DNA of 19,239 nucleotides, taken from NCBI GenBank assembly GCA_919902745.1, contig CAKKRN010000080.1, positions 1 to 19,239 on the forward strand, given 5' to 3'. Position numbers and translations under genes: made by a program. This document shows, piece after piece, positions 2,063 through 17,045 of this stretch. Under the pieces are notes generated by a model. The model was not told the origin of the DNA. It searched no databases and saw only the letters and a list, made by a program, of their open reading frames with translations. Origin of the DNA: Syntrophaceae bacterium. Lineage in GTDB: Bacteria > Desulfobacterota > Syntrophia > Syntrophales > UBA5619. Numbering within the stretch: the stretch's first letter is position 1; each line of letters starts with the position of its first letter.

Positions 2063-3526
2063 TTAAAAATATTTCTTCCGCATGGAAGAGGGCAGAATTC
2101 CCATCATCTCCCTGTATTTCGCAACCGTCCGCCGGGCGATAGAGATCCCTGAATCCCCAAGACGCGCGACGATGACCTGATCGCTGAACGGTTTGCGGGG
2201 ATCTTCCTTGCCGATGATCTTCCGGATATCATCCTGGACGCTCTTGGATGAAACGTCGTCGCTTCCGGGCTTGTGAATGCCGCTGCCGAAGAAGTATTTC
2301 AGCTCGAAGAGACCCCGCGGCGTATGCATGTATTTGTTCGTCACGACCCTGCTGATCGTGGATTCATGCATCTCCACGTCATCGGCGATGTCCCGCAGAA
2401 TCAAAGGTTTCATGGAGTTGATCCCAAGGTCAAAAAAATCCCTCTGAAACCGGACGATGCTCTCGGTAACCCGGTAGATCGTCTTCTGCCGCTGCTGAAT
2501 GCTCTTGATCAGCCAGGTTGCCGACTGGACCCGCTCCTTGATATACTTTTTCCCGTTTTCCCGCGTCACTCCGGCGTTCATTCCGCCCATGATCTCCCGG
2601 TAAAAATTGCTGATCCGGAGTCGCGGAAGCCCCTCGTCATTCAGAACGATCTTGTAATCATCGCCGCTCTTGAAGACATAGACATCGGGAACGATCGCCT
2701 GGATGCGTTCCTCATTGTAGATGCTCCCCGGATGGGGATCCATATGGCTGATGATCACGACGGCTGCCAGAACGTCATCGAGTGACTCTTTCAATTTCCT
2801 GGCGATCTGGGGATAATTCTTGACTTCAAGATCCTTGAGATGGCCAAGGATAATCCGCTCCACAAGGGAACGCGCATTCCCCACCATCTTTGCCTGGATG
2901 AGCAGGCACTCCCGAAGGTCGCGGGCGGCAATCCCGACGGGATCGAATTCCTGAATCTTTTTCAGCACCTCTTCTACAAAGGCCGGCTCGACCTTCTCCT
3001 GGACGCCAATCTCATCCAGTGTGGCAACCAGATAGCCGTTCTGATCCAGATTGCCGATGATCTGTTCGCCAATCCGGTACTCAGCTTCGGTAAATCGAGA
3101 AAGAAGGAGCTGCCACATCAGATGGTCCGTAAGCGAGTTTTTCACGACCAGGAGGTTGTCCCAGGAAGGAGCGGTCCCCTCTTGCCGATCGTAGGTGACC
3201 CCCATCGGCCCATAGTCTTCCAGATAGCCGTCCCAGTCGAACTCCTCCCGACCGTCCCCCTCGCCTGTCAACTCCCCTGTCCGCTCGACCGTTTTGCCCT
3301 CTTCCCGATCGCCTTCCTCGGTCTGTGCAGGTTCGATCTTTTTTTCGGCTTCTGGGTCCTCATCGGAGACGACCTCTTCAAGTAGCGGATTTTCCTCCAT
3401 CTCCTGGTTGACCATGTCGACCAGATCCAGTCGCGATAGCTGCAGGAGCTTGATCGCCTGCTGAAGCTGCGGTGTCATGATCAATTGCTGGGTCAGTTTC
3501 AGGTTCTGTCTTAGTTCAAACGCCAT
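2063..3526 (-). CDS. rpoN: RNA polymerase sigma-54 factor
   Basis: 487 residues, normal for RpoN. Region I is the glutamine- and leucine-rich start (FELRQNLKLTQQLIMTPQL through about residue 51). A long acidic region II follows at residues 52-115 (runs such as EVVSDEDPEAEKK). The core-binding and DNA-binding regions come next, and the RpoN box ARRTVAKYRE lies at residues 464-473 just before the C-terminus; it reads the -24 promoter element. Sigma-54 needs AAA+ activators to melt promoters. The gene starts 29 bases after lptB, in the conserved lptB-rpoN-hpf-ptsN order. The ribosome site is weak (GAGCAG region), so coupling to lptB translation is possible. Confidence 0.97.
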   Translation of the reverse strand: MAFELRQNLKLTQQLIMTPQLQQAIKLLQLSRLDLVDMVNQEMEENPLLEEVVSDEDPEAEKKIEPAQTEEGDREEGKTVERTGELTGEGDGREEFDWDGYLEDYGPMGVTYDRQEGTAPSWDNLLVVKNSLTDHLMWQLLLSRFTEAEYRIGEQIIGNLDQNGYLVATLDEIGVQEKVEPAFVEEVLKKIQEFDPVGIAARDLRECLLIQAKMVGNARSLVERIILGHLKDLEVKNYPQIARKLKESLDDVLAAVVIISHMDPHPGSIYNEERIQAIVPDVYVFKSGDDYKIVLNDEGLPRLRISNFYREIMGGMNAGVTRENGKKYIKERVQSATWLIKSIQQRQKTIYRVTESIVRFQRDFFDLGINSMKPLILRDIADDVEMHESTISRVVTNKYMHTPRGLFELKYFFGSGIHKPGSDDVSSKSVQDDIRKIIGKEDPRKPFSDQVIVARLGDSGISIARRTVAKYREMMGILPSSMRKKYF

Positions 3527-3555
3527 GTTTCGACTGCTCAGCCTTCCATTGCCGA

Positions 3556-4326
3556 TCAGAATTTAAAATCGTCGCCGAAATAGATCTTCCTCGCGATCTC
3601 GGAGCCCGCGATCAATTCCGGCGTTCCCTCCACAAGGACCTTCCCCTCGTTGACGATGTAGGCCCGATCGCAGACGGAAAGGGTCTCCCGGACGTTGTGG
3701 TCGGAGATGATGACCCCGATCCCCTTCGTCCGCAGCCGGGCGATGATCTTCCCGATATCCGCCACCGCCAGCGGATCGATCCCTGCGAAAGGTTCATCGA
3801 GAAGAATATATTTCGGCGAGGTGACGAGCGCCCGCGTGATCTCCACCCGCCTCCGTTCGCCTCCCGACAGAGAATAGGCCCTGTTGTCAGCTATTTGGGT
3901 TAAATCCAGCTCCGCAAGAAGCAGGTGCAGACGCTCCTCTCGCTCTTCCGGGACCAGGGGAAGCGTTTCGAGGATGGCCATGATGTTCTCCCGCACCGTC
4001 AGTTTCCGGAAGATGGAGGGCTCCTGCGGCAGGTAATTCAGCCCCTTTCTTGCCCGCACATACATCGGACTGCGGCTCAGATCCTCACCATCGAGGAAGA
4101 TCGCCCCCCCATCCGGTTTGATCAGCCCGACGATCATGTAGAAGGTCGTCGTCTTCCCGGCGCCGTTCGGTCCCAGGAGGCCGACCACCTCGCCAGGATT
4201 AATCTCAAGATGGATTCGATCGACCACCCGTCGTCGGTTGTAGATCTTGATCAGGCCTGTCGCCGTCAGTCCGGGGACACGATGCGGCATCATGTCCCCG
4301 TCATGATTCCGATTGGAATGGGTCAC
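3556..4326 (-). CDS. lptB: LPS export ABC transporter ATP-binding protein
   Basis: ATPase that powers LPS extraction from the inner membrane by LptFG. Seen: Walker A GPNGAGKTTTF around residues 52-62, signature LSGGERRRVEITRAL, Walker B YILLDEPFAGIDP, and an H-loop in ISDHNVRE. I take GTG at 4324-4326 as the start: it overlaps the lptA stop (GTGA) and has GGGGAGA upstream. The next in-frame starts are the ATG pair inside the palindromic repeat. With the GTG start the protein is 256 residues, about 15 longer than E. coli LptB, and residues 10-19 (GDMMPHRVPG) are encoded by a copy of the palindrome at 4273-4299. The true LptB fold begins near residue 20. Function certain, exact start less so. 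Confidence 0.95.
   Translation of the reverse strand: MTHSNRNHDGDMMPHRVPGLTATGLIKIYNRRRVVDRIHLEINPGEVVGLLGPNGAGKTTTFYMIVGLIKPDGGAIFLDGEDLSRSPMYVRARKGLNYLPQEPSIFRKLTVRENIMAILETLPLVPEEREERLHLLLAELDLTQIADNRAYSLSGGERRRVEITRALVTSPKYILLDEPFAGIDPLAVADIGKIIARLRTKGIGVIISDHNVRETLSVCDRAYIVNEGKVLVEGTPELIAGSEIARKIYFGDDFKF
4273..4299. repeat. 27-bp palindrome inside the lptB 5' coding region
   Basis: Imperfect palindrome GGGGACA...TGTCCCC with 13-base arms around a single central base. It has the characteristic asymmetric C/A mispair at positions 8 and 20 on the plus strand, which becomes a T/G wobble on the coding strand. It lies in frame at the start of lptB and supplies peptide GDMMPHRVPG. Confidence 0.9.
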
Positions 4327-4883
4327 CGTTTTTTCGTCTCCCCGGGATAGATTGTGGCCGTCACGCGCCGGCTCTCAGCGCCTTCGACCACTCCTCTGTT
4401 TTCATTCAGGAATACGACGATCCTGTCTCCCCGGATGATGTTGTCACCCTCGCGCAGGACGGCGCTGCCCGTCATCGTGATCTTCTGGGCATCCAGTTCA
4501 AAGAGGGCGTCCTCTCCGGTCACGACCCGCTCGCCCTCCGTGATCGTAACGCGCCCCTTCGCCTCCACCCTTTCCAGATTCCCCGTCCCTTCGCCCCCTC
4601 CCCCCACGGTTGACCGGCCGGGCTTCTTTTGATCATCCCTGTAGTAAAGCGTCAGGCGTTCGGCATGGATCGTCCGCGCGCCTTGCGTAGCCACGACATT
4701 GCCCGAAAAAACGACCATCCGTTTCTCGTTGTAGGCATCCATGCGGTCGGAGACGATCTGAATCGGCTGATCCTTTTCGATCCCGGGTTTCTGCTTTGTC
4801 TCGCACCGAGCGTCCCCCGGCGGATATAGGATCGTCATCATAATGCCGATGCAGAGGATGATTCGAAAGATACTTTTTAACAT
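4323..4883 (-). CDS. lptA: LPS transport periplasmic protein LptA (OstA domain)
   Basis: 186 residues. A signal peptide is visible (MLKSIFRIILCIGIMMTILY, residues 1-20, then a cleavage-like region before DARCE), so the product is periplasmic. The mature part has the OstA/LptA beta-jellyroll pattern (DQPIQIVSDRMDAYNEKRMV, VVFSGNVVATQGARTIHAERL), which forms the LPS bridge between LptC and the outer membrane. I chose ATG at 4881-4883: it is preceded by AGGGG at good spacing and begins the signal peptide. A longer frame from 4934 would start inside the palindrome and is rejected. The gene starts 10 bases after the lptC stop and ends in a GTGA overlap with lptB. Confidence 0.93.
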   Translation of the reverse strand: MLKSIFRIILCIGIMMTILYPPGDARCETKQKPGIEKDQPIQIVSDRMDAYNEKRMVVFSGNVVATQGARTIHAERLTLYYRDDQKKPGRSTVGGGGEGTGNLERVEAKGRVTITEGERVVTGEDALFELDAQKITMTGSAVLREGDNIIRGDRIVVFLNENRGVVEGAESRRVTATIYPGETKKR

Positions 4884-4893
4884 CTTATTTCCC

Positions 4894-5475
4894 CTACCGC
4901 CATTTGGGGACACCTTGCCGCAAGGTGTCCCCATAGCTCGCCCGAATCTGCGATAGCAGCGTTAACTTGCTATCGTCCAGATGAAATATCATCCCCACGC
5001 CGCTGATTCGGACATTCCCGTTTTCCATCGCGACGGGCCGGTCTGTTTCGATCCGTCGGGCGGCATTCCGGTACCAAAGACGGTCCGTCGCAAAGCGATC
5101 CCCGTTTCCTGAAACGATGCCGACATTCCCGTCGATTTCCATGTCCCGCGATTGGGTATCGAGCCGCCCCTGATCGCCGTTCATCACGAAGGTCCGACCG
5201 TCCTTCATCACCAGCCGGACCGTCACCTTCTCAAAGAGGGCCATGTTCTCCCTCTTCAGATAACGCGCCGTATCCGCGATGATCTCCCATTTTATGCCGG
5301 AATCCCCGACCTCCGTATAACGGACATTTTTGATCTGTAGATCAACCTTGTCCGCCATGATCTTCAGGAGCGCCTTTTCCGGCGCCACCCTGAGGCCGAT
5401 CACGAAAACCACGGCCAAGGACAGAATCACCGCCAGGATCGCGACGATGAACACCGTTTTTCTTTTTGTCTTCAT
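4894..5475 (-). CDS. lptC: LPS export periplasmic protein LptC
   Basis: 193 residues: a short basic start (MKTKRK), one membrane anchor at residues 7-28 (VFIVAILAVILSLAVVFVIG), then a periplasmic OstA-like beta domain (MNGDQGRLDTQSRDMEIDGNV). LptC sits on the LptBFG transporter and hands LPS to LptA. The start at 5473-5475 is chosen because it begins the anchor; a longer frame to 5565 would translate a palindrome copy and lacks family similarity. The ribosome site is weak (GGTGAT directly before ATG). The last residues (GDTLRQGVPK) come from the palindrome at 4906-4932, so a repeat has altered or supplied the C-terminus. Confidence 0.87.
   Translation of the reverse strand: MKTKRKTVFIVAILAVILSLAVVFVIGLRVAPEKALLKIMADKVDLQIKNVRYTEVGDSGIKWEIIADTARYLKRENMALFEKVTVRLVMKDGRTFVMNGDQGRLDTQSRDMEIDGNVGIVSGNGDRFATDRLWYRNAARRIETDRPVAMENGNVRISGVGMIFHLDDSKLTLLSQIRASYGDTLRQGVPKWR
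4906..4932. repeat. 27-bp palindrome at the lptC/lptA junction
   Basis: Fully symmetric variant of the family: outer arms GGGGACA/TGTCCCC are kept but the inner bases differ on both sides together (ACCTTG/CAAGGT in place of ACGATG/CATCAT), so pairing is preserved. It lies in the last codons of lptC and just before the lptA ribosome site. Confidence 0.9.
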
Positions 5476-5481
5476 ATCACC

Positions 5482-5508
5482 GGGGACATGATGCCGCATC
5501 GTGTCCCC
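5482..5508. repeat. 27-bp palindrome just upstream of lptC
   Basis: Full copy of the same imperfect palindrome, in the orientation opposite to the copies at 4273, 5558 and 5673 (judged by the mispaired base). It ends seven bases before the lptC start codon and so occupies the place where a ribosome site would be expected. Confidence 0.9.
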
Positions 5509-5557
5509 GTCATGAAGGAACAACCGATCATGTCCAAATCCACCTTTGCCCTTTCTT

Positions 5558-5584
5558 GGGGACACGATGAGGCATCATGTCCCC
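5558..5584. repeat. 27-bp palindrome in the lptC leader
   Basis: Full copy with one loop-side change (GATGAGGCATC). It is in opposite orientation to the copy at 5482, so the two make a head-to-head pair about 50 bases apart, an arrangement like that of paired REP elements. It lies between the predicted lptC promoter and the lptC start. Confidence 0.9.
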
Positions 5585-5602
5585 AAACCGTACCCTTCTG
5601 AA

Positions 5603-5631
5603 ATTCTACCATCCACGCCCGCGGTTGTAAA
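5603..5631 (-). promoter_or_regulatory. Sigma70-type promoter for lptC-lptA-lptB-rpoN
   Basis: On the minus strand TTTACA (5626-5631) and TAGAAT (5603-5608) are 17 bases apart. Transcription would begin near 5596, giving a leader of about 120 bases that includes the palindromes at 5558 and 5482. It falls in the only sizeable gap (256 bases) between kdsC and rpoN. Confidence 0.6.
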
Positions 5632-5649
5632 GGTCAAACGTCGCTCCAT

Positions 5650-5709
5650 GGGGACATGATGCGGGAGCCCAGGGGGACACGATGCGGCATCATGTCCCCC
5701 TGGGCTCCC
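5650..5709. repeat. Half palindrome plus extended 47-bp palindrome after kdsC
   Basis: A left half (GGGGACATGATGC, 5650-5662) is followed by a full copy (core 5673-5699) whose arms are extended by GGGAGCCCAG/CTGGGCTCCC. The result is a near-perfect 47-bp inverted repeat at 5663-5709 centred on 5686, with only the usual C/A mispair. It starts 22 bases after the kdsC stop. A further TGTCCCC lies at 5721-5727. On the transcript the hairpin would be very stable, but no U-run follows it, so it is not a standard terminator. Confidence 0.9.
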
Positions 5710-5731
5710 TGGTCTCAATCTGTCCCCCATT

Positions 5732-6277
5732 TCATGCGAATTCATATCTCACGGCCACATCCGGCCATCGGTTCTGCGCCTTGAGGATCACCTCGCACAC
5801 CTCTCGAACAGCCCCCCGGCCTCCCTGATGATGCGTTACATAATCGACGATCTGCCGGACCTCCAATACGGCGTCGGCCACGGCTACGGAAAACCCCGCC
5901 CTCCTAAGGAGCGGGATATCCACCACATCATCCCCGACGCAGGCTGTCTCCTCCGGGGCGATTTGCCTCCGGTTGAGAATCTCTTCAAAGGCTTCGGCCT
6001 TGTTCCAGATCCCCTGATGAACCTCGGTGATCCCCAGATCGGCGGCGCGGTGTTCGACCACGCGTGATCGCCTTCCGGTCAGCAGCACCACGCCGATTCC
6101 GTATCTCATCAGAATTTTCAGGCCATGGCCGTCCTTTACATCGAACTGCTTGCTCTCCAGCCCCGCATCGTCGATGATGATCCGGCCATCCGTCAGAACC
6201 CCATCCACATCCAGGATCAGTAGTTTCACCCTGCGGATCTTGTTCAGAAGTCTCTCTTCGGTCACCTCTTCAGCCAT
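5732..6277 (-). CDS. kdsC: 3-deoxy-D-manno-octulosonate 8-phosphate phosphatase
   Basis: 181-residue HAD-family phosphatase that releases Kdo from Kdo-8-phosphate, the step after KdsA. Seen: motif I LDVDGVLTDG with the nucleophile and general-acid aspartates, motif II region VVLLTGRRS, and motif III VGDDVVDIPLLRRAG. There is no large cap domain, as is usual for tetrameric KdsC. The start ATG at 6275-6277 is chosen because GAGGGG lies four bases upstream; an in-frame start at 6334 would overlap kdsA and adds unrelated residues. It lies 28 bases after the kdsA stop, so the two Kdo steps are co-expressed. Confidence 0.95.
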   Translation of the reverse strand: MAEEVTEERLLNKIRRVKLLILDVDGVLTDGRIIIDDAGLESKQFDVKDGHGLKILMRYGIGVVLLTGRRSRVVEHRAADLGITEVHQGIWNKAEAFEEILNRRQIAPEETACVGDDVVDIPLLRRAGFSVAVADAVLEVRQIVDYVTHHQGGRGAVREVCEVILKAQNRWPDVAVRYEFA

Positions 6278-6305
6278 GTTACCCCTCATTTCAAATTGGA
6301 CAGAT

Positions 6306-7133
6306 TCAGTCCTGTTTTGCACGCACCGCCGCATCGATCTTCATGAGCGTCGCGAGAAGCTCCGGCAGGCTGTCCAGGGCCAGGGAATTGGGCCCGTCGC
6401 AGAGCGCACAGTCCGGGTTTGGATGAACTTCAACAAACAGGCCGTCGATCCCGGCCGCCACGGCCGCCCGCGCAAGACAGGGGACCATCCGGCGGTCTCC
6501 TGCCGAGGCATTGCCGGCCCCGCCCGGGAGCTGAACGCTGTGCGTGGCATCAAAAATGACCGGATATCCCGTCGCTCGCAGAATCGGGAAGGAACGGTAA
6601 TCGACGACCAGGTTGTTGTAACCGAAACAGACCCCCCGCTCGGTCAGCATGATGTTATGATTTCCGGCCGCCGCGGATTTCTCGGCGATATGGACGGCAT
6701 CCCATGGGGCGAGAAACTGCCCCTTTTTGATGTTCACCACCTTCGCCCGGCGGGCGATCTCGACGATGAAGTCGGTCTGCCGGCAGAGAAAGGCCGGAAC
6801 CTGGAGGACGTCGAGGACCGCAGCCGCCGGAGCGATCTCCTCAAAGCGATGGACGTCGGAGAGAACGGGGATTGCGAACGCATCCCGGATCCTCTTCAGA
6901 ATTTCAAGGCCCCGGATCAAACCCGGTCCGCGGTAGGCGTCGCGGGAGGTCCGATTCGCCTTGTCGTAAGAGGCCTTGAAGATGAACGGGATGCCAAGCT
7001 TCCCCGTCAGCCCCTTCAGATCACGGGCAATCTCCATGGTCTTTTCTTCATCCTCGATCACACAGGGGCCGGCGATGAGCACAAGGGGAGCGCCCCCACC
7101 GACCTCGAAACTACCGATGCTGATCTTCTTCAT
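6306..7133 (-). CDS. kdsA: 2-dehydro-3-deoxyphosphooctonate aldolase (Kdo-8-P synthase)
   Basis: 275 residues, normal length. It condenses arabinose-5-phosphate with phosphoenolpyruvate to make Kdo-8-phosphate for the LPS inner core. Seen: IAGPCVIEDEE near the start, FKASYDKANRTS (phosphate and PEP binding), PVLSDVHRFEE, IKKGQFLAPWD and the C-terminal VEVHPNPDCALCDGPNSL loop. ATG at 7131-7133 is preferred over the in-frame GTG at 7137-7139, because AAGGAG at 7141-7146 is seven bases from the ATG and only one from the GTG. It follows the TPR gene after about 20 bases. Confidence 0.97.
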   Translation of the reverse strand: MKKISIGSFEVGGGAPLVLIAGPCVIEDEEKTMEIARDLKGLTGKLGIPFIFKASYDKANRTSRDAYRGPGLIRGLEILKRIRDAFAIPVLSDVHRFEEIAPAAAVLDVLQVPAFLCRQTDFIVEIARRAKVVNIKKGQFLAPWDAVHIAEKSAAAGNHNIMLTERGVCFGYNNLVVDYRSFPILRATGYPVIFDATHSVQLPGGAGNASAGDRRMVPCLARAAVAAGIDGLFVEVHPNPDCALCDGPNSLALDSLPELLATLMKIDAAVRAKQD

Positions 7134-7154
7134 GCACACACTCCTTAATGCGAT

Positions 7155-9152
7155 TCATTGTTTCTGCTGGAAGATCCGGATCTTCATCTGGGGGATCTTC
7201 CTGGCCGCCGTCGCCGAGTCGGGGTTCAGTTCATAGGCGGTCGTGTAGGCCTTCAGCGCCTCCGGGAAAAGCCCCTTTTTCTCATAGGCCGCTCCGAGAT
7301 TCACGTAAACCTCGTCGTCCTCAGAATCCCATTTAAGCGACTTCAGGTAATATTCGATCTGCCGGTCCGGATCACCCTTGAGTCCGTATGCGTAAGCGGC
7401 GCTCGCGTAGCCGGCTGCCTTCTTCGGGTTCAATTCGATCAGCTTCTTATAGATCCGGATGGCCTTGTCGTACTGTTTTTCCTTCATGTATGCGTCCGCC
7501 AGGGTGTTCAGGACCTCGGTCGTCGGGTTCGCGGCGGCAAGCGTTTCATACATTGCGACCGATTCTTTTGTCTTTCCCGTCTGACTGTAGGAAAGAGCCA
7601 GATTCTGCCGGATATGGGGATCCTTTGCGCCGTATCGGATGGCCTGCTCATAGTTTGCCGCGGACTGGGCGGGTTTCTTCAGCTCGGCGTAGGCAAAACC
7701 AAGACGGGTATGAATCACCGATTTCCGGGGACTCATCTTCACCGCCTTCTCATAAAGAGGCACGGCCTCGCCGAAACGCCTCGCCTTGAAATGGAGATCG
7801 GCCAGCCTTTCCAGTGAATCGGCATCCTGGGGTTTCAATGCCAGGACTTTCTGGTATTCCCGAACCGCCTCCGGCTCCTTTTTAGCCTTTTCATAAGCGG
7901 TCGCCAGGTTAAAGTGAACCACCGGATCACCCGGGTTCAGTTCGATCGCCTTTCGGTAATTTTCGATCTCTTCCCGGGTCAGCCCCTTGCTGCCGTAGGC
8001 CAGGCCGAGATTGGCATAGGCGGCGGCATTTTTCGGCTGTCTCTTCAGAACCTCCCGATGCCACCGGATCGTATCGTCATAATTCCCCAGCCTCAACGTG
8101 ACGCTCGCCAGGGCGACCGCCACATGATCGGCCTTCGGCACCTTTTCCAGCACCCGTTCATATTGTTCTACGGCCTTTCCCAACTGGCCCGTCTTCTCAT
8201 AAGCCTCCCCCAACTTGAAAATGACCAAGGGATTGCCGGGTCGAAGCTTCAGAGAATCCTCATAAGCGGCGATCGCCTTTTTCCAATTCCCCAAATTTCC
8301 CCAAGCCAGGGCCATATCGGCCAGTGCGGCATCATCCTTCGGATTGGCTTTGACGGCCTGCGCGGTGATCCGTATTGCCTCCTCGTACTGTCCGCTTTTC
8401 AGATAGCACTTTGCCAGCTCGGACAGGATCGCTGTATCATCCGGCTTCAGCGCAAGAATCTCCTGATACTGTGCAATCGCATCCCCCGTCATGCCGGCAT
8501 GGAGATAGATGGAGGCGAGCATCCGGCGCACGTTCGTATCTTCCCGGTTCAGGGCGATCGCCCGTTTGAGGTATTCGATCTGGACCTTCTGATTCCCGGA
8601 GCTCCGGGCATAGCGCAGCCAGTCCTGGGGGGTGATTTGTATCCGGATAGGAATGGCCGCAATCGGGTCTCCCCGATAGGTAATCCGCAGCGAATAATCG
8701 CCTGGTCTGTTTCTCCCGACGCCGCCCCGGCCGGTCAGGACCGCCTTGTCCACCAGGTCGATCCCCTTGAGGAGCTTTCCAAAATCATTCTTATCCCCGA
8801 GCCCTGCGACATCCACTGCGATCGCGCCGCCAAAGAGAACATCCGTCGAAACCTCTTTGATCACAAATTCATCCCGATAGGAAACCTCAAAAATATCGCT
8901 TGAGGTCAGGCGGTAATCCTTCCCGTTCTTTTCCAGAACAAGCGCATAGAAATGGGGTTTCCGGTCGAGGACGATAAAGGAAAAGGTATTCTGAATGCGG
9001 ATCCATCCTTCCGCGATCGCCCGAACCTTTTCCGGGTAAAAGAGAAGGGCCGCCAGGCCGGCTGCCGTGAAGAGCAAAAGAACGGTCCGGATCCACGTCG
9101 ATTTTCGTCCTTTCCTTCGAGATCTCGATGCGATACCAGACTTGTATTCCAT
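7155..9152 (-). CDS. Membrane-anchored 13-TPR protein
   Basis: 665 residues. A basic N-terminus (residues 1-22) is followed by one membrane segment around residues 23-40 (VLLLFTAAGLAALLFY), so most of the protein is likely periplasmic. Residues 50-165 form an unrecognised beta-rich domain (FSFIVLDRKPHFYALVLEKNG). From about residue 180 to the end there are 13 consecutive 34-residue TPR units with the usual G-Y-A-P pattern, for example GAAYEKKGLFPEALKAY. TPR arrays bind partner proteins; the partner is unknown. Its place between xerD and kdsA hints at an envelope role, but that is only context. Start: ATG at 9150-9152, nine bases after GAGAGG; an upstream in-frame TTG at 9161 is less likely. 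Confidence 0.85.
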   Translation of the reverse strand: MEYKSGIASRSRRKGRKSTWIRTVLLLFTAAGLAALLFYPEKVRAIAEGWIRIQNTFSFIVLDRKPHFYALVLEKNGKDYRLTSSDIFEVSYRDEFVIKEVSTDVLFGGAIAVDVAGLGDKNDFGKLLKGIDLVDKAVLTGRGGVGRNRPGDYSLRITYRGDPIAAIPIRIQITPQDWLRYARSSGNQKVQIEYLKRAIALNREDTNVRRMLASIYLHAGMTGDAIAQYQEILALKPDDTAILSELAKCYLKSGQYEEAIRITAQAVKANPKDDAALADMALAWGNLGNWKKAIAAYEDSLKLRPGNPLVIFKLGEAYEKTGQLGKAVEQYERVLEKVPKADHVAVALASVTLRLGNYDDTIRWHREVLKRQPKNAAAYANLGLAYGSKGLTREEIENYRKAIELNPGDPVVHFNLATAYEKAKKEPEAVREYQKVLALKPQDADSLERLADLHFKARRFGEAVPLYEKAVKMSPRKSVIHTRLGFAYAELKKPAQSAANYEQAIRYGAKDPHIRQNLALSYSQTGKTKESVAMYETLAAANPTTEVLNTLADAYMKEKQYDKAIRIYKKLIELNPKKAAGYASAAYAYGLKGDPDRQIEYYLKSLKWDSEDDEVYVNLGAAYEKKGLFPEALKAYTTAYELNPDSATAARKIPQMKIRIFQQKQ

Positions 9153-9211
9153 GGATTCCAACCTCTCGACCCCTGTTGACCCTCTTGCTTTTTAATCACC
9201 CGATGATGCCG

Positions 9212-10099
9212 TCATCCCCGGGGATGATACTTCCGATGAATCTCCTTGAGACGTTCCCTGGTCACGTGCGTGTAGATCTGGGTCGTGGAGATGTCGGCAT
9301 GACCCAGCATGATCTGCACAGAACGCAGATCGGCCCCCCCCTCTAACAGGTGTGAGGCAAAGGAATGCCGGAAGGTGTGGGGATGAATCGCCTTGTCCAG
9401 ACCTGCCTTTGCGGCATACTTTTTCACGATCTTCCAGAATCCCTGCCGGGTCAACCCTTTTCCCGATCGGTTCAGAAACAACAGCTCGCTCTCGCGCCCC
9501 TTGAGAAGAAGCGGCCTTGCCCCTTCCTGGTACCGCTTGACCCGCTCGTATGCGGTCTGACCCACGGGGACAATCCGTTCCTTCTCCCCCTTCCCCATGG
9601 CGACCAGATACCCCACCTGCCAGTTGATGCTGTTTACGGTAAGCCCGATCAGCTCCGACACCCGGATTCCGGTCGCATACACGAGCTCGAGCATGGCGGA
9701 ATCCCGGATGTCCGCCGGCGTCTCCGCACCGGGTTGCGCCAACAGCAGCGCCATTTCTTCACGACTTAGAACGTCGGGAAGTCGGGTCCAAACCTTGGCC
9801 AGTATGATATGGGCCATGGGGGTATGGTCCACCTTCTTCTCCCGAAGCAGGTATCGATAAAACCCCCGGATGGCTGCCAACGCACGGTTCACCGAATTGG
9901 CCGCCAGACCTTGGCCGTGCAGAGACGCCAGGTAGGCAATCACATCCTCCGTCTCGATCCCGCTGATCTCAACGACCCCGCGTTCTTCGATAAACCCCGC
10001 ATACCGGTTCAGATCCCGGCTGTACCCGTCGATCGTGTTGCGGGAGGCCCCTTTTTCGACCGCCATGAAATTCAGATACTCGTCGATCAGATGATGCAT
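9212..10099 (-). CDS. xerD: Tyrosine recombinase XerD
   Basis: 295 residues. N-terminal SAM-like DNA-binding domain (IDEYLNFMAVEKGASRNTIDGY) and C-terminal catalytic domain with all the tyrosine recombinase residues: Arg in ATGIRVSEL, Lys in MGKGEKERIVP, HTFRHSFASHL (H..R), the second His in LGHADISTTQIY, and the nucleophile Tyr in that last segment. Length and the absence of mobile-element neighbours favour the housekeeping XerD that resolves chromosome dimers at dif over an integrase. No dif site was recognised here. Oddity: no Shine-Dalgarno precedes the ATG; nine A residues on the coding strand lie there instead (10101-10109). Confidence 0.93.
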   Translation of the reverse strand: MHHLIDEYLNFMAVEKGASRNTIDGYSRDLNRYAGFIEERGVVEISGIETEDVIAYLASLHGQGLAANSVNRALAAIRGFYRYLLREKKVDHTPMAHIILAKVWTRLPDVLSREEMALLLAQPGAETPADIRDSAMLELVYATGIRVSELIGLTVNSINWQVGYLVAMGKGEKERIVPVGQTAYERVKRYQEGARPLLLKGRESELLFLNRSGKGLTRQGFWKIVKKYAAKAGLDKAIHPHTFRHSFASHLLEGGADLRSVQIMLGHADISTTQIYTHVTRERLKEIHRKYHPRG

Positions 10100-10303: not shown

Positions 10304-11170
10304 CTAAAGCAATCCTTTCGCCCGCAAGAGCGGCATGGCATCTATCATAAGTTTTTCCATTCCGAGTGCGCCTGACCGGGCTCCCAGGGCGATGCCGATA
10401 AGCTGGGTCAGGTAGATGACAGGTATAGCGTAGGGCGCCCCTGATGGGCTGGTCAGACCCTTCTGCCTGATGTCCAGGTTGGACTGGCAGAGAGGACAGA
10501 CGACGGCAATGCAGTCTGCAGACGCCCGCGTCGCGCTTTGGAGTATCTCGCCCAAGAGCCTCTTCGTAATATCCGGTCTCGTGATGGAGAGGCTTGCCCC
10601 GCAGCAGTCCACCTTGCATGTCCACTCAACAGGTTGCCCACCGAGCGCCTCGATGATCTGCTCGAGGAGGCTGGGTTGTTCCATATCGTCGGCCGCCGCC
10701 GGGAAAAACCGGGTCAGGCAGCCGTAATAGGAGGCAATTTTAAGCCCTTCGAGGGGTTTCTTTACCATAGCCTTCAGGCCGCCCAGCGTCACCCGGTCAC
10801 GGAGGAAATCAAGCAAGTGGTATATTTTTAGCCCCCCCTCATACGTGTACCCGGTGACCTCTGAAAGACGTTGTCTGACATTAGCGTCCGTTACGCAGGC
10901 CGCTTCCGTATGGCTGATACTGTAGAGGCAGGAGGGGCAGGGGATGAGAAGCTCCTTTATACCGTGCATCTCAGCCTTCTGGATGTTTTTGTAGGGAAGC
11001 AAGTGGGAGAGTTCCTGGGAGACGGCATGGGTAGGACTCGTACCGCAACAGATCCAGTCGGGAACCTCCACGAGCGTTATGTTCATCATGCCGCATATGG
11101 CTCTCAACGAAATATCGAATTCCCTCGATGCGCTCTCCAGTGAACATCCGGGGTAGTACCCTATTTCCAT
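10304..11170 (-). CDS. hdrB: Heterodisulfide reductase subunit B (CCG-domain protein)
   Basis: 288 residues with two CCG domains, each of which holds part of a non-cubane [4Fe-4S] cluster pair in the known enzyme. First copy: YYPGCSLES at residues 5-13, DWICCGTSP around 38-46, PCPSCLYS near 77-83. Second copy: YYGCLTR near 150, VDCCGASLS near 190, VCPLCQSN near 226. In methanogens HdrB reduces CoM-S-S-CoB. Here the acceptor is unknown, as bacteria lack that disulfide; other thiols or iron-sulfur partners are possible. The start overlaps the hdrC stop by 10 bases, with GGTGGAAGG just before it. It is the last gene of the redox operon. Confidence 0.93.
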   Translation of the reverse strand: MEIGYYPGCSLESASREFDISLRAICGMMNITLVEVPDWICCGTSPTHAVSQELSHLLPYKNIQKAEMHGIKELLIPCPSCLYSISHTEAACVTDANVRQRLSEVTGYTYEGGLKIYHLLDFLRDRVTLGGLKAMVKKPLEGLKIASYYGCLTRFFPAAADDMEQPSLLEQIIEALGGQPVEWTCKVDCCGASLSITRPDITKRLLGEILQSATRASADCIAVVCPLCQSNLDIRQKGLTSPSGAPYAIPVIYLTQLIGIALGARSGALGMEKLMIDAMPLLRAKGLL

Positions 11171-11739
11171 CCTTCCACCTTCATCCTTTTATAAAAGGTT
11201 TGCCCTTTTTTGAAGAGCTCTTTCACCTCGCCCAACGCCTTCACCTTGTGCGGCAGAAGACCTATCTTCCTCTTTTTCAGTATAGCCGGCAGCAGGCCAA
11301 TGTCCCGAAACGGCGTCATCGCCATCATGTTGTTCTGGACCATGAGGCCGAGCTCGTATACACGCCCGTACTTCTTAATCATATCGATAAAAAGGCGGTT
11401 GAAGACGTGGATATGTTTCTCCTTGGGCGTATACCCTTCAGCCAGGCACATCATTCGGAGAACATTCATGACCTTCGCGATGTCTATCCCTTCCGGGCAC
11501 CGGGCTGTACAGGTAAGGCACGATGAGCAGGTCCATACCATCGACGAGGTGAGCGCCCGCTCCTTCATGTTGAGCTGGATGAATCGCATGATCCGACTGG
11601 GAATCTCCTCCATGTCAGGTGCAACCGTGCACCCGCCCGAGCACTTGCCGCACTGGATGCAATGGGTCACATCATCCCCGCTCAATTCCTTGACCCGTTT
11701 ACTCAAATTGTGGACATGTTCCGCATCAAGCTCCAGCAT
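11161..11739 (-). CDS. hdrC: Heterodisulfide reductase subunit C, iron-sulfur
   Basis: 192 residues with two [4Fe-4S] binding motifs, CIQCGKCSGGC around residue 27-37 and CSSCLTCTARCPEG around 70-83, typical of HdrC, which wires HdrA to HdrB. The C-terminal half (FNRLFIDMIKKYGRVYELGL) is the helical region seen in the family. I choose ATG at 11737-11739, preceded by AGAAGAG and overlapping the hdrA stop by 14 bases. In-frame starts at 11760 and 11790 exist and would add a basic stretch; the family usually begins near the chosen site. Start confidence is moderate, function high. Confidence 0.92.
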   Translation of the reverse strand: MLELDAEHVHNLSKRVKELSGDDVTHCIQCGKCSGGCTVAPDMEEIPSRIMRFIQLNMKERALTSSMVWTCSSCLTCTARCPEGIDIAKVMNVLRMMCLAEGYTPKEKHIHVFNRLFIDMIKKYGRVYELGLMVQNNMMAMTPFRDIGLLPAILKKRKIGLLPHKVKALGEVKELFKKGQTFYKRMKVEGWK

Positions 11740-13717
11740 AGGCGTTCTCTTCTTCCTCATCAGCTTCAAACGGCGCCGAAATCTGGGCATATATGGCCTT
11801 GTCCGTAAAGCCCTTCACGTCCAGGGCCCCGCTCCTGCAGGTCGACGCGCAGTTCCCGCAACCCTGGCATAGGGTCTGGATCACGCGCGCCACGTTCCGT
11901 CCGCTCACGGTATCCTTCTGTATCGCGTCATAGGGGCAGACGTCCACACAATTGAAGCACCCCACGCACTTGTCAACGGCCACCTCGGCCAGTTTCGGCT
12001 CCACGGTCAGCTCATCCGCAGCAAAAAGCGTGCATACCTTCGCTGCCGCCGCCGATCCCATCATGACCGAGTCGGGTATATCCTTCGGGAAGGTGCACGC
12101 ACCCGCGATGAACATGCCCCGCGTGATGCTTTCAACGGGCTGCAGCTTCGGATGGATCTCGCTGTAAAAACCGTAGCTGTCATACGGGATGTTGAGCATG
12201 CGCGCCAAGTCCCGGGCATCAGGGTTTGGCACCATGGCGCTGGCAAGCACCACCAGGTCTGCGTTGATCTTGACCGATTCACCGGCCAAGGTGTCGGCGC
12301 CGTAGACCTCGAGCTTGTCGCCGGGATCGTGGATCTTCGAGACCCTGCCCCTCAGGTAGACAACGCCGTATTCGCGCTGGGCTCTGAGGATAAACTCTTC
12401 GTAATTCTTTCCCGTGGCCCGTATGTCGATGTAGAAGACGTAAGACTGGGTTTCCGGGAAATGATCCTTGAGTAATATGGCCTGTTTTGCCGTGTACATA
12501 CAACAGACCTTCGAGCAATAGGCCATGCCCTTGACCTCGTCCCGTGAACCCACGCACTGCACGAACACGACACTCTTTGCAGGTTTTCCATCGGAAGGTC
12601 GAACGAGGCGGCCGCCTGTCGGACCGTTCGGGTCGATCATCCGTTCCAACTGCAGGCCCGTGATCACGTCCTTATAGCGGCCGCCGCCATATTCCCCGTA
12701 CTTCGAGATGTCGAAAAGGGAAAAGCCGGTGGCGACGATGATGGCGCCGAACTTTTCCGTCCTTATTGTCTCCTCTTGTTCGTAGTTAATAGCACCCGCT
12801 TTACAGACCTTCTGACAGATCTGGCACTTGCCTTTGGTGAAATAGATGCAGTGGTCACGGTCAATGACCGGGACGTTCGGTACGGCATTGGAGAAGGGTT
12901 TGTAGATAGCCCTCCTTGTGCCGAGGCCCTGGTCGGCCTCGCTTGGGACCTTCGCCGGGCACTTGGTCAGGCAGTCGCCGCAGCCTGTGCACCTGGACAT
13001 GTCAACCGAGCGCGGGCGCATGCGTATCGTGACGTCGAAATTCCCGACAAAACCCTTGACATCGATCACCTCTGAATAGGTGAGGAGTTCTATGTTTTCA
13101 TGATGGGATGACTCCGTCATCCGCGGGGTGAGTATTCAGGCACTGCAGTCGAGGGTCGGGAAGGTCTTCTCTAACAGCGCCATCGTGCCGCCGATGGAAG
13201 GCGTCTTTTCGACAAGCGTAGTGTGGTACGAGGCATTTGCCATGTCGAGCGCCGCCTGGATGCCCGCAATACCGCCGCCGATGATGAGGGCGCGCTTTTC
13301 AACGGGGAACTTGAGCGGTGTCAGGGGCGAGAGCCGGAGCAGCTTTGCTATACCCATCCGTACGAGATTAATTGCCTTGGCCGTTGCTACGTCGTTGTCC
13401 GTATGGACCCATGAACACTGTTCCCGGATGTTGACCATCTCGAACATGTAAGGGTTGAGGCCGGCCTGCGCGATGCACTTCTGGAATGTCCCTTCGTGCA
13501 TGCGCGGTGTGCACGCAGCGACCACCACGCGGTCCAGTTGGCGCTCCTTGATCGCATCCTTTATGCTGTTCTGCCCGAGATCTGAACAGCTGTACTGGAG
13601 CGTTGCCGCGTAAGCGACCCCGGGAATGGATTGCACCGAATCGACCACGCGATCCACATCGACGACCGATGCGATGTTCTTACCACACTGACATATAAAG
13701 ACCCCTGTCCTTGCCAT
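11726..13717 (-). CDS. hdrA: Heterodisulfide reductase subunit A, selenoprotein (UGA at 13136-13138)
   Basis: Read through one in-frame TGA, this is 663 residues, normal for HdrA. N-terminal domain: FICQCGKNI (Cys9, Cys11), YSCSDLGQ, NIREQCSW. FAD domain: LIIGGGIAGIQAALD near residue 145 and TPSIGGTMALLEKTFPTLDCSA, then the UGA at residue 194, then ILTPRM. The family has Cys at that point (DCSACILTPKM), and Sec is known there in some methanogen HdrA. Downstream: CTGCGDCLTKCP at 243-254, a second cluster motif near residue 290, GSRDEVKGMAYCSKVCCMYTAKQ, and two C-terminal ferredoxin motifs at about 584-598 and 607-617. HdrA carries the bifurcating flavin. Start ATG at 13715-13717 follows AAGGTGG; an upstream GTG at 13729 is too close to its AGGA. 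A hairpin at 13106-13122 supports recoding. Confidence 0.93.
13106..13122 (-). promoter_or_regulatory. Predicted SECIS hairpin of hdrA
   Basis: On the mRNA strand a perfect 7-bp stem GGATGAC/GTCATCC with loop GGA lies 14-30 bases after the UGA. Loop position and a G at the start of the loop fit the general bacterial SECIS pattern bound by SelB. The stem lies in coding sequence. Confidence 0.75.
13136..13138 (-). other. In-frame UGA read as selenocysteine in hdrA
   Basis: TGA in the frame GAC-TGC-AGT-GCC-TGA-ATA-CTC. Both sides are in the same frame with no indel, and the residue aligns with a conserved cysteine of HdrA. Confidence 0.85.
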
Positions 13718-13735
13718 CTCTGCAGCCACCTTCCT

Positions 13736-15778
13736 TTATGCTACCTTCTCCAGCTTCACTGCGCAGATCTTGAATTCGGGTATCTTCACCACCGGATCGA
13801 GGGCAGGGTTCGTGAGCACGTTTGCCGCCGTTTCCGCAAAGTGAAAGGGCACAAAGACGGAACCGCTCTGCACAATCGGTGTAATCCTTGCCTCTACCTC
13901 GATCGCGCCCCTGCGAGAGCGCAACCGCGTCAACTGCCCGGCCTTTATCCTAAGTTTCTTCGCGTCAGCCGGGTGGATCTGCACGTAGCAGCGGTTGATC
14001 TGTCCCGTTAACGACTTGGACCGGCGGGTCATGCTTCCCGTATGGTAATGGAAAGCGTCTCGTCCCGTTATGAGAATAAAAGGGTACTCCTCGTCGGGCA
14101 ACTCTGCCGGCGCCTTGTAGGCCACGGGTTTGAACGTGCCCAAACCCTTCGAGAACGTGTCCTTGTGCATGAAGACGGTCGATGGGGCCTCCTTGGTCCT
14201 GCAGGGCCACTGGATGCCGTTTTCCGCGATCCTGTCGTAGCTTATGCCCGCGAAAAGGGGAACGAGCGATGCGATCTCGTCGAAGACCTCCGACGGGGAT
14301 GCGTAGTCAAAATCGGGGGCGCCCATCGCATGGGCCACGTCACAGATGATCTGCCAGTCCGGCCGGGCCTCCCCGATGGGCTCGATGGCCTTCCGGATCC
14401 GCTGGACCCTTCGATCCGTGGAGACGAAGGTGCCGTCCTTTTCTGCAAAGGTGACCCCGGGGAGCACTACGTGGGCGAGGGCGACTGTTTCGGTAGGAAA
14501 AATGTCCTGGACGATCAGCAGTTCGAGCGATTCGAGGGCTTTTTTGACGTGCTGGATGTCGGGATCGCTTACCATGGGGTTTTCGCCCATGACGTAAAGC
14601 GCCCTGATCCCTCCCGTTCCGATGGCGTCCATCATTTCCATGATCGTAAGGCCGGGCTTCCTCGGAAGGGTGACGCCCCACGCAGTCTCGAATTTGGCAA
14701 TGACGGCATCGTCTGCAAGCGACTGGTAGCCGGGCAGCACATTCGGTATGGCCGCCATGTCCGTGGACCCCTGGACGTTGTTCTGCCCCCTGAGCGGATT
14801 GACGCCGGAGGCCCACTTGCCTATATGGCCCGTTGCCATGGATAGGTTTGCCAGGCTGAGCACGTTGTCGACCCCGACTGTGTGCTGCGTGATGCCCATG
14901 CAATACACGATAGAGCTCTGCTTTGCCTTTGCGAACATTTCTGCCGCCTGGCGTAACTGCACTTCGGGTATCCCCGTTATCTCCGAAACCCGGGCGGGTG
15001 TATACTCTTCGATAAATGTTTTCAAGACAGCGAATCCTTCTGTCCGTTTTTCAACAAACTCCTTGTCGTACCATCCTTCCTTGATGATGATGTGGAGAAG
15101 TCCGTTGATCACGGCCACGTCCGTACCCGATTTTTCCGCCAAATAGAGGTCTGCGTAGGAGGCAATGTGGGTTTTCCGGGGGTCGACCACAATGATTTTG
15201 GCCCCTTTCTCCCTTGCCCTGAAGATGCGGGTGGCAATGATCGGATGGGCGACGGTCGTGTTGGATCCGATGATCAGGATGCACGCCGCGTCCTCCAGCT
15301 CCTCGACCGAGTTCGTCATGGCGCCACTTCCGAATGCTGCGGCAAGACCTGCCACCGTGGGAGAGTGTCAGAGGCGGGCGCAGTGGTCGATGTTGTTCGT
15401 TCCAATGACCGCCCTCGTGAATTTCTGGAGGAGATAGTTCTCCTCGGTCGTACATTTTGCCGAGCTGAACGCACCAAAGCTGTCCGGGCCGTACGCCTGC
15501 GTGATGGCCTTGAGCCGAGAGGCAATAAATGAGAGCGCCTCATCCCATTCTACCTCTTCCAATCGCCCGTCTTTTCTTACAAGCGGTTTCTTCAGGCGAT
15601 CGGGGCTGTGCACGAATTCGTGGGCGGACCAGCCTTTAATGCAGAGCTTTCCCTGGTTGACGGGGTTTGTCTTGCACGGGAGAACCCCTTCCAGCCGGCC
15701 ATTCATAACTTCAAGCAGTATGCCGCACCCGGTTCCGCAAAACGGGCATATTGTGTAAACGGTCCTGTAATCGATCAT
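13736..15778 (-). CDS. fdhA: Formate dehydrogenase catalytic subunit, selenoprotein (UGA at 15368-15370)
   Basis: Read through one in-frame TGA the protein is 680 residues. The N-terminal [4Fe-4S] site is Cys11, Cys14, Cys18 and Cys46 (CPFCGTGC, GKLCIKGW with Lys48 between cluster and pterin). The catalytic site reads DHCARL-Sec137-HSPTVAGL, the exact Sec-His pair of FdhF-type enzymes. Further pterin-binding blocks are LIIGSNTTVAHPI, VDPRKTHIA, MGITQHTVG, GQNNVQGSTDMAA and the C-terminal TGRDAFHYHTGSMTRRS. The enzyme oxidises formate to CO2, or runs in reverse, using a molybdenum or tungsten bis-pterin cofactor. There is no Tat signal, so it is cytoplasmic, as expected with Hdr. It starts six bases after the upstream iron-sulfur gene and ends 18 bases before hdrA. 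A SECIS hairpin at 15339-15355 supports decoding. Confidence 0.97.
15339..15355 (-). promoter_or_regulatory. Predicted SECIS hairpin of fdhA
   Basis: On the mRNA a stem of six pairs (GUGGCA/UGCCGC with one G-U wobble) closes a GGUCU loop 19-23 bases after the UGA. The loop matches, as I recall it, the GGUCU of the E. coli fdhF SECIS that SelB recognises. Confidence 0.88.
15368..15370 (-). other. In-frame UGA read as selenocysteine in fdhA
   Basis: Context CGC-CTC-TGA-CAC-TCT encodes R-L-Sec-H-S, the canonical catalytic Sec of formate dehydrogenase. Confidence 0.95.
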
Positions 15779-15784
15779 AAAGCC

Positions 15785-16591
15785 TTAATGGCCCTCCTGT
15801 TCCCCGAATTTTCCATCGCCGAGATACTGCAGCGGTCCCTTGCCCTCTTTCGTGATGCCGGGCGTAAAACCGAATCGCGTAGTCACTACGTTCCTCATCT
15901 TCTTGTAAAGGGTTCTAAGCGGTATGCCCGAAGGACATGCCGCTTCGCAGAGTCCGCAATCGATGCAACGTTCGGCCATGTGGAAGGCCCGGATGAGATG
16001 GAAGATGGGTTTCTCAGGCGGAATGGTTCCGGTTTGGATCAGGTCGTCCTCGTCGAGTGTGCATGTAGTGCAGAAGCACATGGGACAGATGTTGCGGCAT
16101 CCATAGCACTTGATGCACTTGCCGAACTGGTCCATCCAGTACTGGAGCCGCTCCTCCTCGCTCAGGCGGTCGAGCCGGTCGAGACCCTCACTGTCGGAAA
16201 CGGGCGCCACCCGCTCCCCTGAAAGGTGTGACGAGGGGTACGGCTGCGGGCACTGGCACGCGGAAGCCTGCTCGCTGCTGCAGGCCACCCCGAAGACGAC
16301 CACGCGTTCCCCGTTCAACTGTACGTTCCGCACCAGCTCCAAAATGGCCCGTTCGTCGCACCCCCGTGCGACGATGCCAAGGTGTGCATCCAGGTCGTTG
16401 CGCAGGACCTTGAGGAGTACCGCGGCAAGGGGATAGCGAGCCTCGCCCACGACAAGCCGATCAAGGTCCTCAATCCTCCCCTTCGTGAAGAGGTGGGGTC
16501 TCGGGTGCCCTCCGTCCAGTATCAAACCCATGACACCCGCCACGGGCCCTTCTGTTAGGGCATCCCTGATCCCCTCCCTCAGCCTATCCAC
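15785..16591 (-). CDS. FdhB-like iron-sulfur protein of formate dehydrogenase
   Basis: 268 residues. The N-terminal half resembles the beta-subunit family of F420-linked formate dehydrogenases and hydrogenases (VVGEARYPLAAVLLKVLR, ARGCDERAILELVRN, FGVACSSEQASACQC). The C-terminal half has two cluster motifs, CIKCYGCRNICPMCFC near residue 159 and CIDCGLCEAACPSGIPLRTL near 215. Likely role: passes electrons between FdhA and MvhD/HdrA; cofactor use by the N-terminal half is not proven. Start: GTG at 16589-16591, seven bases after AAGGAG; the in-frame TTG at 16597 is only one base from that site. The start overlaps the mvhD stop by eight bases, so the genes are translationally coupled. Precise subfamily is uncertain. 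Confidence 0.85.
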   Translation of the reverse strand: MDRLREGIRDALTEGPVAGVMGLILDGGHPRPHLFTKGRIEDLDRLVVGEARYPLAAVLLKVLRNDLDAHLGIVARGCDERAILELVRNVQLNGERVVVFGVACSSEQASACQCPQPYPSSHLSGERVAPVSDSEGLDRLDRLSEEERLQYWMDQFGKCIKCYGCRNICPMCFCTTCTLDEDDLIQTGTIPPEKPIFHLIRAFHMAERCIDCGLCEAACPSGIPLRTLYKKMRNVVTTRFGFTPGITKEGKGPLQYLGDGKFGEQEGH

Positions 16592-17045
16592 GGGCAAACT
16601 CCTTCCTCTTGATGGGTGAGGGCCCTATTGTCCTAATCTGCTCGGTAAAACTGGTAAACGAGCGGGAGAGCTTGTCACTCTCCGATGTGGCGATATACTC
16701 GAGCCTGAGTCTGTCCTCGCCGATGCCCACGAACTTCAACATATCCCTCAGCACATCCACGCGTTTTGCTGTCAGATAATTACCCTTCTGGTAATGGCAC
16801 TCCCCCAGGTGACATGCCGCGATAATCACGCCGTCGGCACCCTTCTGGAATGCCTTAAGTACGAAATGAGGCGAAACCCGCCCGCTGCACATGGTCCGGA
16901 TCACGAGTATGTTTGCCGCATACTTCAGCCTCAGTGAACCACTAAGGTCAGCTGCTGCGTAGCTTCACCAGTGACAGCAAAAAGCAATAATCAAGGGTTC
17001 AAACTGCATAGATTTATCCATTTGTGTCTGTGCGGATTTTTCCAT
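16584..17045 (-). CDS. mvhD: MvhD-type [2Fe-2S] electron-transfer subunit, selenoprotein (UGA at 16965-16967)
   Basis: A stop-to-stop reading would leave only the 106-residue C-terminal part. Upstream of it, in frame, is IIAFCCHW-TGA-SYAAADLSGSLRLKYAAN, which matches the usual MvhD start (FxCNWCSYAGADLAG) with TGA in place of the second cysteine of CxxC. Read as Sec27 the protein is about 153 residues, near the family's size. Other conserved parts: VIRTMCSGRV with Cys53 and CHLGECHYQKGN with Cys78 and Cys83. MvhD carries a [2Fe-2S] cluster linking a hydrogenase or formate dehydrogenase to HdrA; Sec is known in the methanogen homologue VhuD. Start: ATG at 17043-17045 after GGTGA, about 24 bases from the predicted transcript start; ATGs at 17021 and 17009 are alternatives. 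First gene of the operon. Confidence 0.9.
16929..16947 (-). promoter_or_regulatory. Predicted SECIS hairpin of mvhD
   Basis: On the mRNA CCUUAGUG and CACUGAGG pair over eight positions (one U-G wobble) around a GUU loop, 18-36 bases after the UGA. The loop begins with G, as bacterial SECIS elements require. Confidence 0.8.
16965..16967 (-). other. In-frame UGA read as selenocysteine in mvhD
   Basis: TGT-CAC-TGG-TGA-AGC-TAC encodes C-H-W-Sec-S-Y, where the family has CNWCSY. The frame is open from the ATG at 17045 up to this codon and from it to the gene's stop. Confidence 0.87.

Follow-up and report, generated by a model that had tools for sequence, protein, structure and literature searches.

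The archaeon M. maripaludis has selenocysteine (Sec, U) versions of FdhA, HdrA and VhuD and is described as requiring selenium for growth on formate; the same source describes an hdrA-U/vhu/fwu operon in which several genes encode selenoproteins (PMC11097638). In Deltaproteobacteria, a 2006 study presents hdrA-frhD-frhG-frhA operons (with glpC) that hold several Sec genes, and its inventory for Syntrophus aciditrophicus counts four FdhA, four FrhD and four HdrA selenoproteins (PMC1794560). FdhA, VhuD/MvhD and HdrA also come together in the formate-linked heterodisulfide reductase (Hdr) complex of methanogens (PDB 9sfi/9t1s), as they would in the complex discussed here, and in 9t1s a non-standard residue (X), which we infer to be Sec, stands at all three positions homologous to the Sec sites described below. 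Multi-Sec hdr operons have therefore been published, contrary to the first-pass annotation of the DNA studied here, according to which Sec was known in these proteins singly. This DNA is a 19,239-nucleotide stretch from a Syntrophaceae bacterium (contig CAKKRN010000080.1 of assembly GCA_919902745.1; hereafter the window), in which six closely packed genes on the minus strand, at 10304-17045, follow the order mvhD-fdhB-fdhA-hdrA-hdrC-hdrB. We propose, judging from sequence, that the six genes very probably encode one soluble formate dehydrogenase/heterodisulfide-reductase-type complex, in which SelB would insert Sec into three subunits as directed by a hairpin following each UGA.

When TGA is read as U, the frames of mvhD, fdhA and hdrA are unbroken, with a single internal TGA in each and no other in-frame stop, and they match FlpD/MvhD, the alpha subunit of formate dehydrogenase (Fdh) and HdrA, respectively. 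In the homologue alignment all three TGAs fall exactly on family Cys/Sec positions, so that each of the three genes has an in-frame UGA where its homologues carry Cys or Sec. The homologue set consisted of the loci of the best 80 of at least 538 HdrA relatives in GTDB species genomes, plus loci from the order and phylum of the window. Sites were counted in sequences that reached 560 bits (HdrA), 500 bits (FdhA) or 60 bits (MvhD), in each case with an E value of 1e-20 or better; paralogues scoring lower were left out, and the window was counted in for all three sites. The rows L140 and L198 were dropped from site and stem counts, the first lying on the contig of L062 and the second being an apparent duplicate of L022. 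Among the sequences scored, the hdrA site is U in 36 of 99 and C in the other 63, with nothing else found. The fdhA site is U in 12 of 14, the others being one Cys and one Ser, the latter in a 40% paralogue. In mvhD, Cys prevails at the site (88/99, against five U, five Ser and one Gly), and U is likewise found there in L010, L015, L016 and the same-genus contig L140, the last in addition to the five counted. Frames, alignments and site counts thus agree with the earlier claim of one in-frame UGA at a Cys/Sec position in each gene. Some neighbouring cases were seen at the same sites. In the window's order, L141, L144, L145, L147 and L148 each have, upstream of a Sec hdrA, an MvhD-like paralogue whose Cys/Sec site is Ser (CCNWSPFAC or CCNWSPWAC); L015 has a second FdhA-like protein (19314-21293, 40%) in which Ser replaces the catalytic Sec; and the match to the fdhA of L035 (7652-9550) has a gap or unread stretch where the Sec site would lie.

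A 2026 review gives as limits of the bacterial selenocysteine insertion sequence (bSECIS) a loop of 3-9 nt, a G within the first two loop positions, a distance of 16-37 nt from the UGA and an energy of at most -7.5 kcal/mol (PMC13188914). All three hairpins of the window lie within these limits, in line with the G-led hairpins at SECIS distance that had been noticed before. However, these limits are unspecific: 795 of 2124 background codons of the operon pass loosely, 254 of the 2124 precede a hairpin at or below -7 kcal/mol, and synonymous shuffles drawn from the codon pool of the operon give P = 0.033 for mvhD, 0.31 for fdhA and 0.026 for hdrA. Since background codons pass so often and the shuffle P values are modest, the hairpins alone prove little, and we rejected their energy as stand-alone proof. 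The proof rests instead on the conservation of the sites, on invariance at the codon level and on covariation, as read from the aligned genes.

In hdrA, the 22 Sec genes from the wider clade around the window form 154 of 154 stem pairs, versus 174 of 441 in 63 Cys genes. Codons 7-10 past the UGA (ACG GAG UCA UCC) are letter-identical in 14 clade genes, those of the 22 with the GACGGAGUC form, while in the same 14 genes codons 1-5 vary, nearly all synonymously and with one amino-acid change; the remaining eight sequences have the GGUGGAGUC or GGUGGAAUC form and retain the stem pairing. For fdhA, six of six pairs form in nine of the 12 Sec genes and five of six in the other three, and one pair, at third codon positions, is compensating (C-G in 8/12, A-U in 2/12, U-A in 2/12), random pairings being equally good in 0.03% of cases, a figure uncorrected for the kinship of the sequences. 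In the loose folding test, 19/20 Sec sites of hdrA pass versus 15/60 Cys sites, 4/5 versus 25/69 for mvhD, and 9/10 Sec sites for fdhA, where the single Cys site passes too.

Several observations on sites and hairpins weigh against Sec insertion as we propose it. The hairpin energies are unremarkable compared with synonymous shuffles, most clearly in fdhA, and Sec in mvhD is rare among the sequences scored. In the relatives, mvhD and hdrA of L016 and fdhA of L015 fail the folding test (P 1.0); L015 fdhA nonetheless keeps five of six stem pairs and L016 hdrA seven of seven. Finally, the 14 Sec hdrA from other clades do not form the window-type stem (33 of 98 pairs). The hairpin of these clades is of a different type, farther from the UGA: 26 nt in L070, L077, L078, L080 and L086 and, judged by eye, about 27 nt in L141-L149. 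SECIS sequence and spacing therefore vary between hdrA clades.

The order mvhD-fdhB-fdhA-hdrA-hdrC-hdrB recurs in L011, L013, L015, L016, L019, L033 and L186; in L035, too, it is found, though there a 3-kb gap follows mvhD, and partial orders are found on contigs that end inside the operon. The window, L015 and L016 have U at each of the three sites. In L011-L014, L033 and L186, mvhD has Cys while fdhA and hdrA have U, and the Dehalococcoidia locus L019 has Cys at all three sites. L140, from the genus of the window, has U in mvhD and fdhA, its hdrA being broken at an apparent assembly join. There (L062/L140, about 3160-10000), some 6.8 kb containing a further hdr cluster stand in place of hdrA codons about 11-290. 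This cluster includes an MvhD with FCCIYUGYEAA; we set it aside as the product of a probable join. Among the full-length relatives listed, L010 is nearest to the window's HdrA (79%). Its genes at 5078-8973 are mvhD-U, hdrA-U, hdrC and hdrB, with no fdhBA; by eye, the adjoining genes resemble a Wood-Ljungdahl set (methyltransferase, FolD, CooC, ferredoxin-type activator). The reading frames, the exact Cys/Sec positions, the conserved hairpins (best in hdrA and fdhA) and the order kept in relatives are all properties of the DNA itself.

The features of the locus are collected in Table 1. The first-pass annotation had placed the six-gene operon at 11726..17045; the six genes stand, while its lower end lies at 10304 and the start of mvhD is more probably the ATG at 17009 than the alternative ATG at 17045, because residue 1 of the MvhD chain 8rvu_F aligns with the Met at 17009. 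Either GTG 13729 or ATG 13717 could be the start of hdrA, whose true stop is the TGA at 11726, overlapped by the start of hdrC.

Table 1. Genes, selenocysteine codons and hairpins of the operon in the window, with the two-TGA hdrA genes of relatives.
Feature	Position	Strand	Support
mvhD (FlpD, [2Fe-2S] electron-transfer subunit)	16584..17009	-	Pfam FlpD E 4.4e-49; PDB MvhD chains
Sec UGA of mvhD, CCHWUSYA	16965..16967	-	
SECIS-like hairpin of mvhD, 8 bp, loop GUU, 25 nt past UGA	16929..16947	-	
fdhB-like iron-sulfur subunit, 270 aa, shortened	15785..16597	-	match to FdhB 9t1s_M
fdhA, formate dehydrogenase alpha subunit, one in-frame UGA	13736..15778	-	TIGR01591 882 bits, cut-off 666
Sec UGA of fdhA, CARLUHSP	15368..15370	-	
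SECIS hairpin of fdhA, loop GGUCU, 18 nt past UGA	15339..15355	-	
hdrA, FAD/iron-sulfur subunit, one in-frame UGA	11726..13729	-	PDB HdrA 5odc_A E 5.3e-205
Sec UGA of hdrA, DCSAUILTP	13136..13138	-	
SECIS hairpin of hdrA, 7 bp, loop GGA, 20 nt past UGA	13106..13122	-	
hdrC-like subunit, 4Fe-4S dicluster, start overlapping hdrA stop	11161..11739	-	profile matches
hdrB-like subunit, two CCG (non-cubane cluster) motifs	10304..11170	-	PF02754, two stretches; motif scan
Two-TGA hdrA of relatives	L015 10001-11989; L016 3554-5545; starts L017 964, L018 672, L035 9747		

FdhA, FdhB, MvhD, HdrA, HdrB and HdrC, the subunits of an Fdh-Hdr complex, are thus encoded together, and family and PDB matches agree with the earlier view that a formate site, a [2Fe-2S] subunit and a bifurcating flavoprotein share one operon. 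FdhA is closest to PDB 9t1s_L (E 1.4e-246), which has X at the Sec site, and HdrA and MvhD match chains of Hdr-Mvh as well as Fdh-Hdr entries. Against the VhuD model NF045873, the mvhD product scores 129 bits, below the cut-off of 215, and HdrA scores 835 bits against NF040770, below the cut-off of 1100 of a model that also spans a fused MvhD part. FdhB matches the 383-residue 9t1s_M at 88-126 and 272-376 only. Residues 127-271 of 9t1s_M, and with them most of the central part of an F420-type FdhB, are left unmatched, so that the protein is not a full-length F420-type FdhB. In an alignment of 12, 15 of its Cys are invariant. The flavin/F420 part of FdhB presumably lies in the stretch that the window protein lacks. 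As the middle is unmatched yet 15 Cys are invariant, FdhB may be an electron wire devoid of an F420 site. Both CCG motifs of the non-cubane clusters are found in HdrB. With 126 bits (curated cut-off 345) for HdrB and 64.5 bits (cut-off 160) for HdrC, these proteins do not qualify as a reductase of the coenzyme M-coenzyme B heterodisulfide, CoM-S-S-CoB; since they score so far below the cut-offs of the methanogen enzyme, the acceptor is probably a disulfide other than the methanogen one.

From what is known of these families, formate would be oxidised at the metal site of FdhA, with Sec as a metal ligand, a role stated for FdhA in PMC13188914. The shortened FdhB would hand the electrons to the [2Fe-2S] cluster of MvhD, where Sec would take part in a CxxU pair; a 2025 Nature paper (PMC12350162) places the [2Fe-2S] cluster bound by MvhD homologues close to the bifurcating flavin adenine dinucleotide (FAD). 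The FAD of HdrA could then bifurcate or confurcate electrons between ferredoxin and, via HdrC, the non-cubane clusters of HdrB, which would reduce a disulfide or a similar acceptor. By analogy with growth of M. maripaludis on formate, the output of the operon may depend on selenium. Complex formation, the direction of the electrons and the acceptor are all drawn from protein families, which tells against too firm a reading of this scheme. In a rival scheme Sec is real, but bifurcation by the complex is not driven by formate: fdhBA is only co-transcribed, and mvhD-hdrACB works with another partner. L010, whose two Sec genes stand with hdrC and hdrB and without fdhBA beside Wood-Ljungdahl-like genes (by eye), is what one would expect in that case. 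We nevertheless regard it as unlikely, because the six-gene order is kept across several lineages, including the Dehalococcoidia L019, and because FdhA, FdhB, HdrA and MvhD match entries that combine Fdh and Hdr chains (9t1s, 7bkb).

The proposed Sec complex has also to be weighed against the state of the selenocysteine machinery. The window's assembly amounts to 1.84 Mb in 323 contigs and is 85.5% complete. It has two different selD genes (L008 and L009, on contigs C171 and C178), both with an in-frame TGA (GAGUACK). On the other side of the balance, in this assembly selA has no match, selB has eight matches, all below the cut-off, and the tRNA-Sec gene (selC) has 13 weak matches, again all below the cut-off. 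The best selB match, the other seven being weaker, was rejected as EF-Tu by eye, adjoining ribosomal protein genes, as were the top three tRNA-Sec candidates, at whose loci ordinary Ser, Gly and Trp tRNAs are found. Also unfavourable is that selB was not found in four of the 14 genomes behind the relatives' loci, being present in the other ten. The first-pass annotation had named the absence of selABCD from the genome as what would speak against Sec; this is partly what we see, with selD alone found in an incomplete assembly. Among same-genus genomes, selA, selB and selC each occur in eight of ten, and the seven of at least 84% completeness, 2.6-4.5 Mb in size, have all three; over the 41 genomes covered per search, selB exceeds the cut-off in 36 and selA in 36. 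The window's own assembly, although likewise more than 84% complete, is the exception. Because the window's assembly is smaller than the same-genus genomes, missing sequence is the likeliest cause of the gap, real loss being a less likely one.

One alternative is that the TGAs are true stops in decaying or split pseudogenes, a reading to which the missing selA, selB and selC lend some weight, as does the same-genus L062/L140, with its broken hdrA and an mvhD split into two overlapping frames. However, genes in decay would hardly conserve both flanks of each TGA, share the same TGA across separate metagenome-assembled genomes, hold U or C alone in all 99 scored hdrA, keep an hdrA hairpin invariant at the nucleotide level and be free of any further in-frame stop in mvhD, fdhA and hdrA. 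We therefore consider decay very improbable. A genome-wide reassignment of TGA to an ordinary amino acid, which the presence of in-frame TGAs in several genes might evoke, is hardly credible and is rejected by stop usage in the window, where TGA terminates 10 of the 17 genes examined (gene models and some names being our own reading), is internal in mvhD, fdhA and hdrA only and falls there on Cys/Sec sites, with TGG used 38 times.

The lineage beside the window's HdrA quite probably goes one step further, with an HdrA that carries two selenocysteines, at DCSAU and at CHUGTNI. In L015, L016, L017, L018 and L035, hdrA has an extra in-frame TGA after ten codons, at the second residue of an N-terminal CxC aligned to position 13 of 5odc_A, a position that is Cys in all 92 other hdrA compared. 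The residues before this UGA are retained through synonymous changes, a five-pair stem is found downstream in 5/5 versus 5/92 Cys genes (5/17 near ones), and selB is present in all five genomes. Folding energy counts against this second site, since all five genes pass the loose test but so do 36 of 73 Cys genes, and the shuffle P values are 0.09, 0.07, 0.02, 0.09 and 0.01. In a quick tree of 97 rows the five form one clade (Shimodaira-Hasegawa-like approximate likelihood ratio test 99) inside a 13-row group that holds the window, so that a single origin suffices on the HdrA tree. A draw of 395 genomes of the phylum, 116 of them with a match, gave two TGAs in seven rows; five were of the CHU type and turned out to be the same five loci, from four families. 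Of the 20 stretches of this draw 11 were examined, the other nine apparently being L010-L014, L017, L018, L033 and L035 again. Among other candidates, a second TGA at a ferredoxin-domain Cys in the hdrA of L186 (5974-7932, CKQKUPKKV) was seen in one assembly only and was not counted; it could be another Sec site or an error. G311 (L195), with two TGAs and a TAA, was set aside, the known Sec site alone lying within HdrA residues 5-652. A 2026 inventory that describes itself as the most comprehensive to date lists HdrA with one Sec (PMC13188914). Adding the CHU site to the three shared ones, the operons of L015 and L016 have four UGAs in three genes.

Sec hdrA genes are easily lost from view. 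The expectation that gene callers would fragment hdrA is borne out by the best 120 relatives listed for its downstream piece, in a search whose scoring was confined to the 8000 candidates with the most shared words. Of these 120 proteins, 90, among them the first 69 without exception, are fragments that do not exceed 470 aa; the Cys/Sec position is Cys in each of the 30 longer proteins. As many as 77 of the 90 fragments begin with MTES or MVES, that is, with the Met six codons past the UGA in the window. With so many half-length HdrA in public databases, Hdr-based metabolic reconstructions of uncultured anaerobes likely miss or misread such genes. If the operon is translated as read here, a bifurcating formate path would use selenium at the catalytic metal site, in the [2Fe-2S] relay and in the flavoprotein. 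Such a path would be a natural test case for two questions: whether electron-transfer positions, as well as catalytic ones, favour Sec, and how an operon handles three or four serial UGA decodings.

Set against the systems described so far, the locus shares much with each of them. In the methanogen complex, unlike in the window, FdhB is 383 residues long and VhuD has a second X (PDB 9t1s). M. maripaludis differs in being archaeal and in that hdrA-U and vhuD share an operon with other genes, fdhA not being named there in the account available (PMC11097638). The hdrA-frh operons of Syntrophobacter and Desulfotalea resemble the window in combining Sec hdrA with Sec frhD, of the MvhD family, and further Sec genes, but their partner is of the hydrogenase type (frhA, frhG), and the accounts consulted name no fdhA, hdrB or hdrC in them (PMC1794560, PMC13188914). 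The set HdrBCA-MvhD-FdhBA is described in the deep-sea Chloroflexi DscP3 and in Desulfobacula toluolica; unlike in the window, Sec is stated there, as far as the source was available, for FdhA alone, that of DscP3 (PMC5736913). Closer still may be Desulfobacterium autotrophicum HRM2, described as having Sec hdrA/hdrL, mvhD and fdhA genes in its genome and mvhD at every hdrA/hdrL locus except hdrA4; as in the window, hdrA/hdrL, mvhD and fdhBA lie together in its loci V and VI (PMC2702500). One of these two may already be a triple-Sec locus, so that the novelty of the triple is not certain. In a non-exhaustive survey of mostly open-access literature, available in part, we found no report of a two-Sec HdrA or of a triple Fdh/Hdr selenoprotein operon. 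With this reservation, the mvhD-fdhBA-hdrACB type with Sec at all three sites, complete in the window and two relatives, looks like a new bacterial arrangement of known parts.

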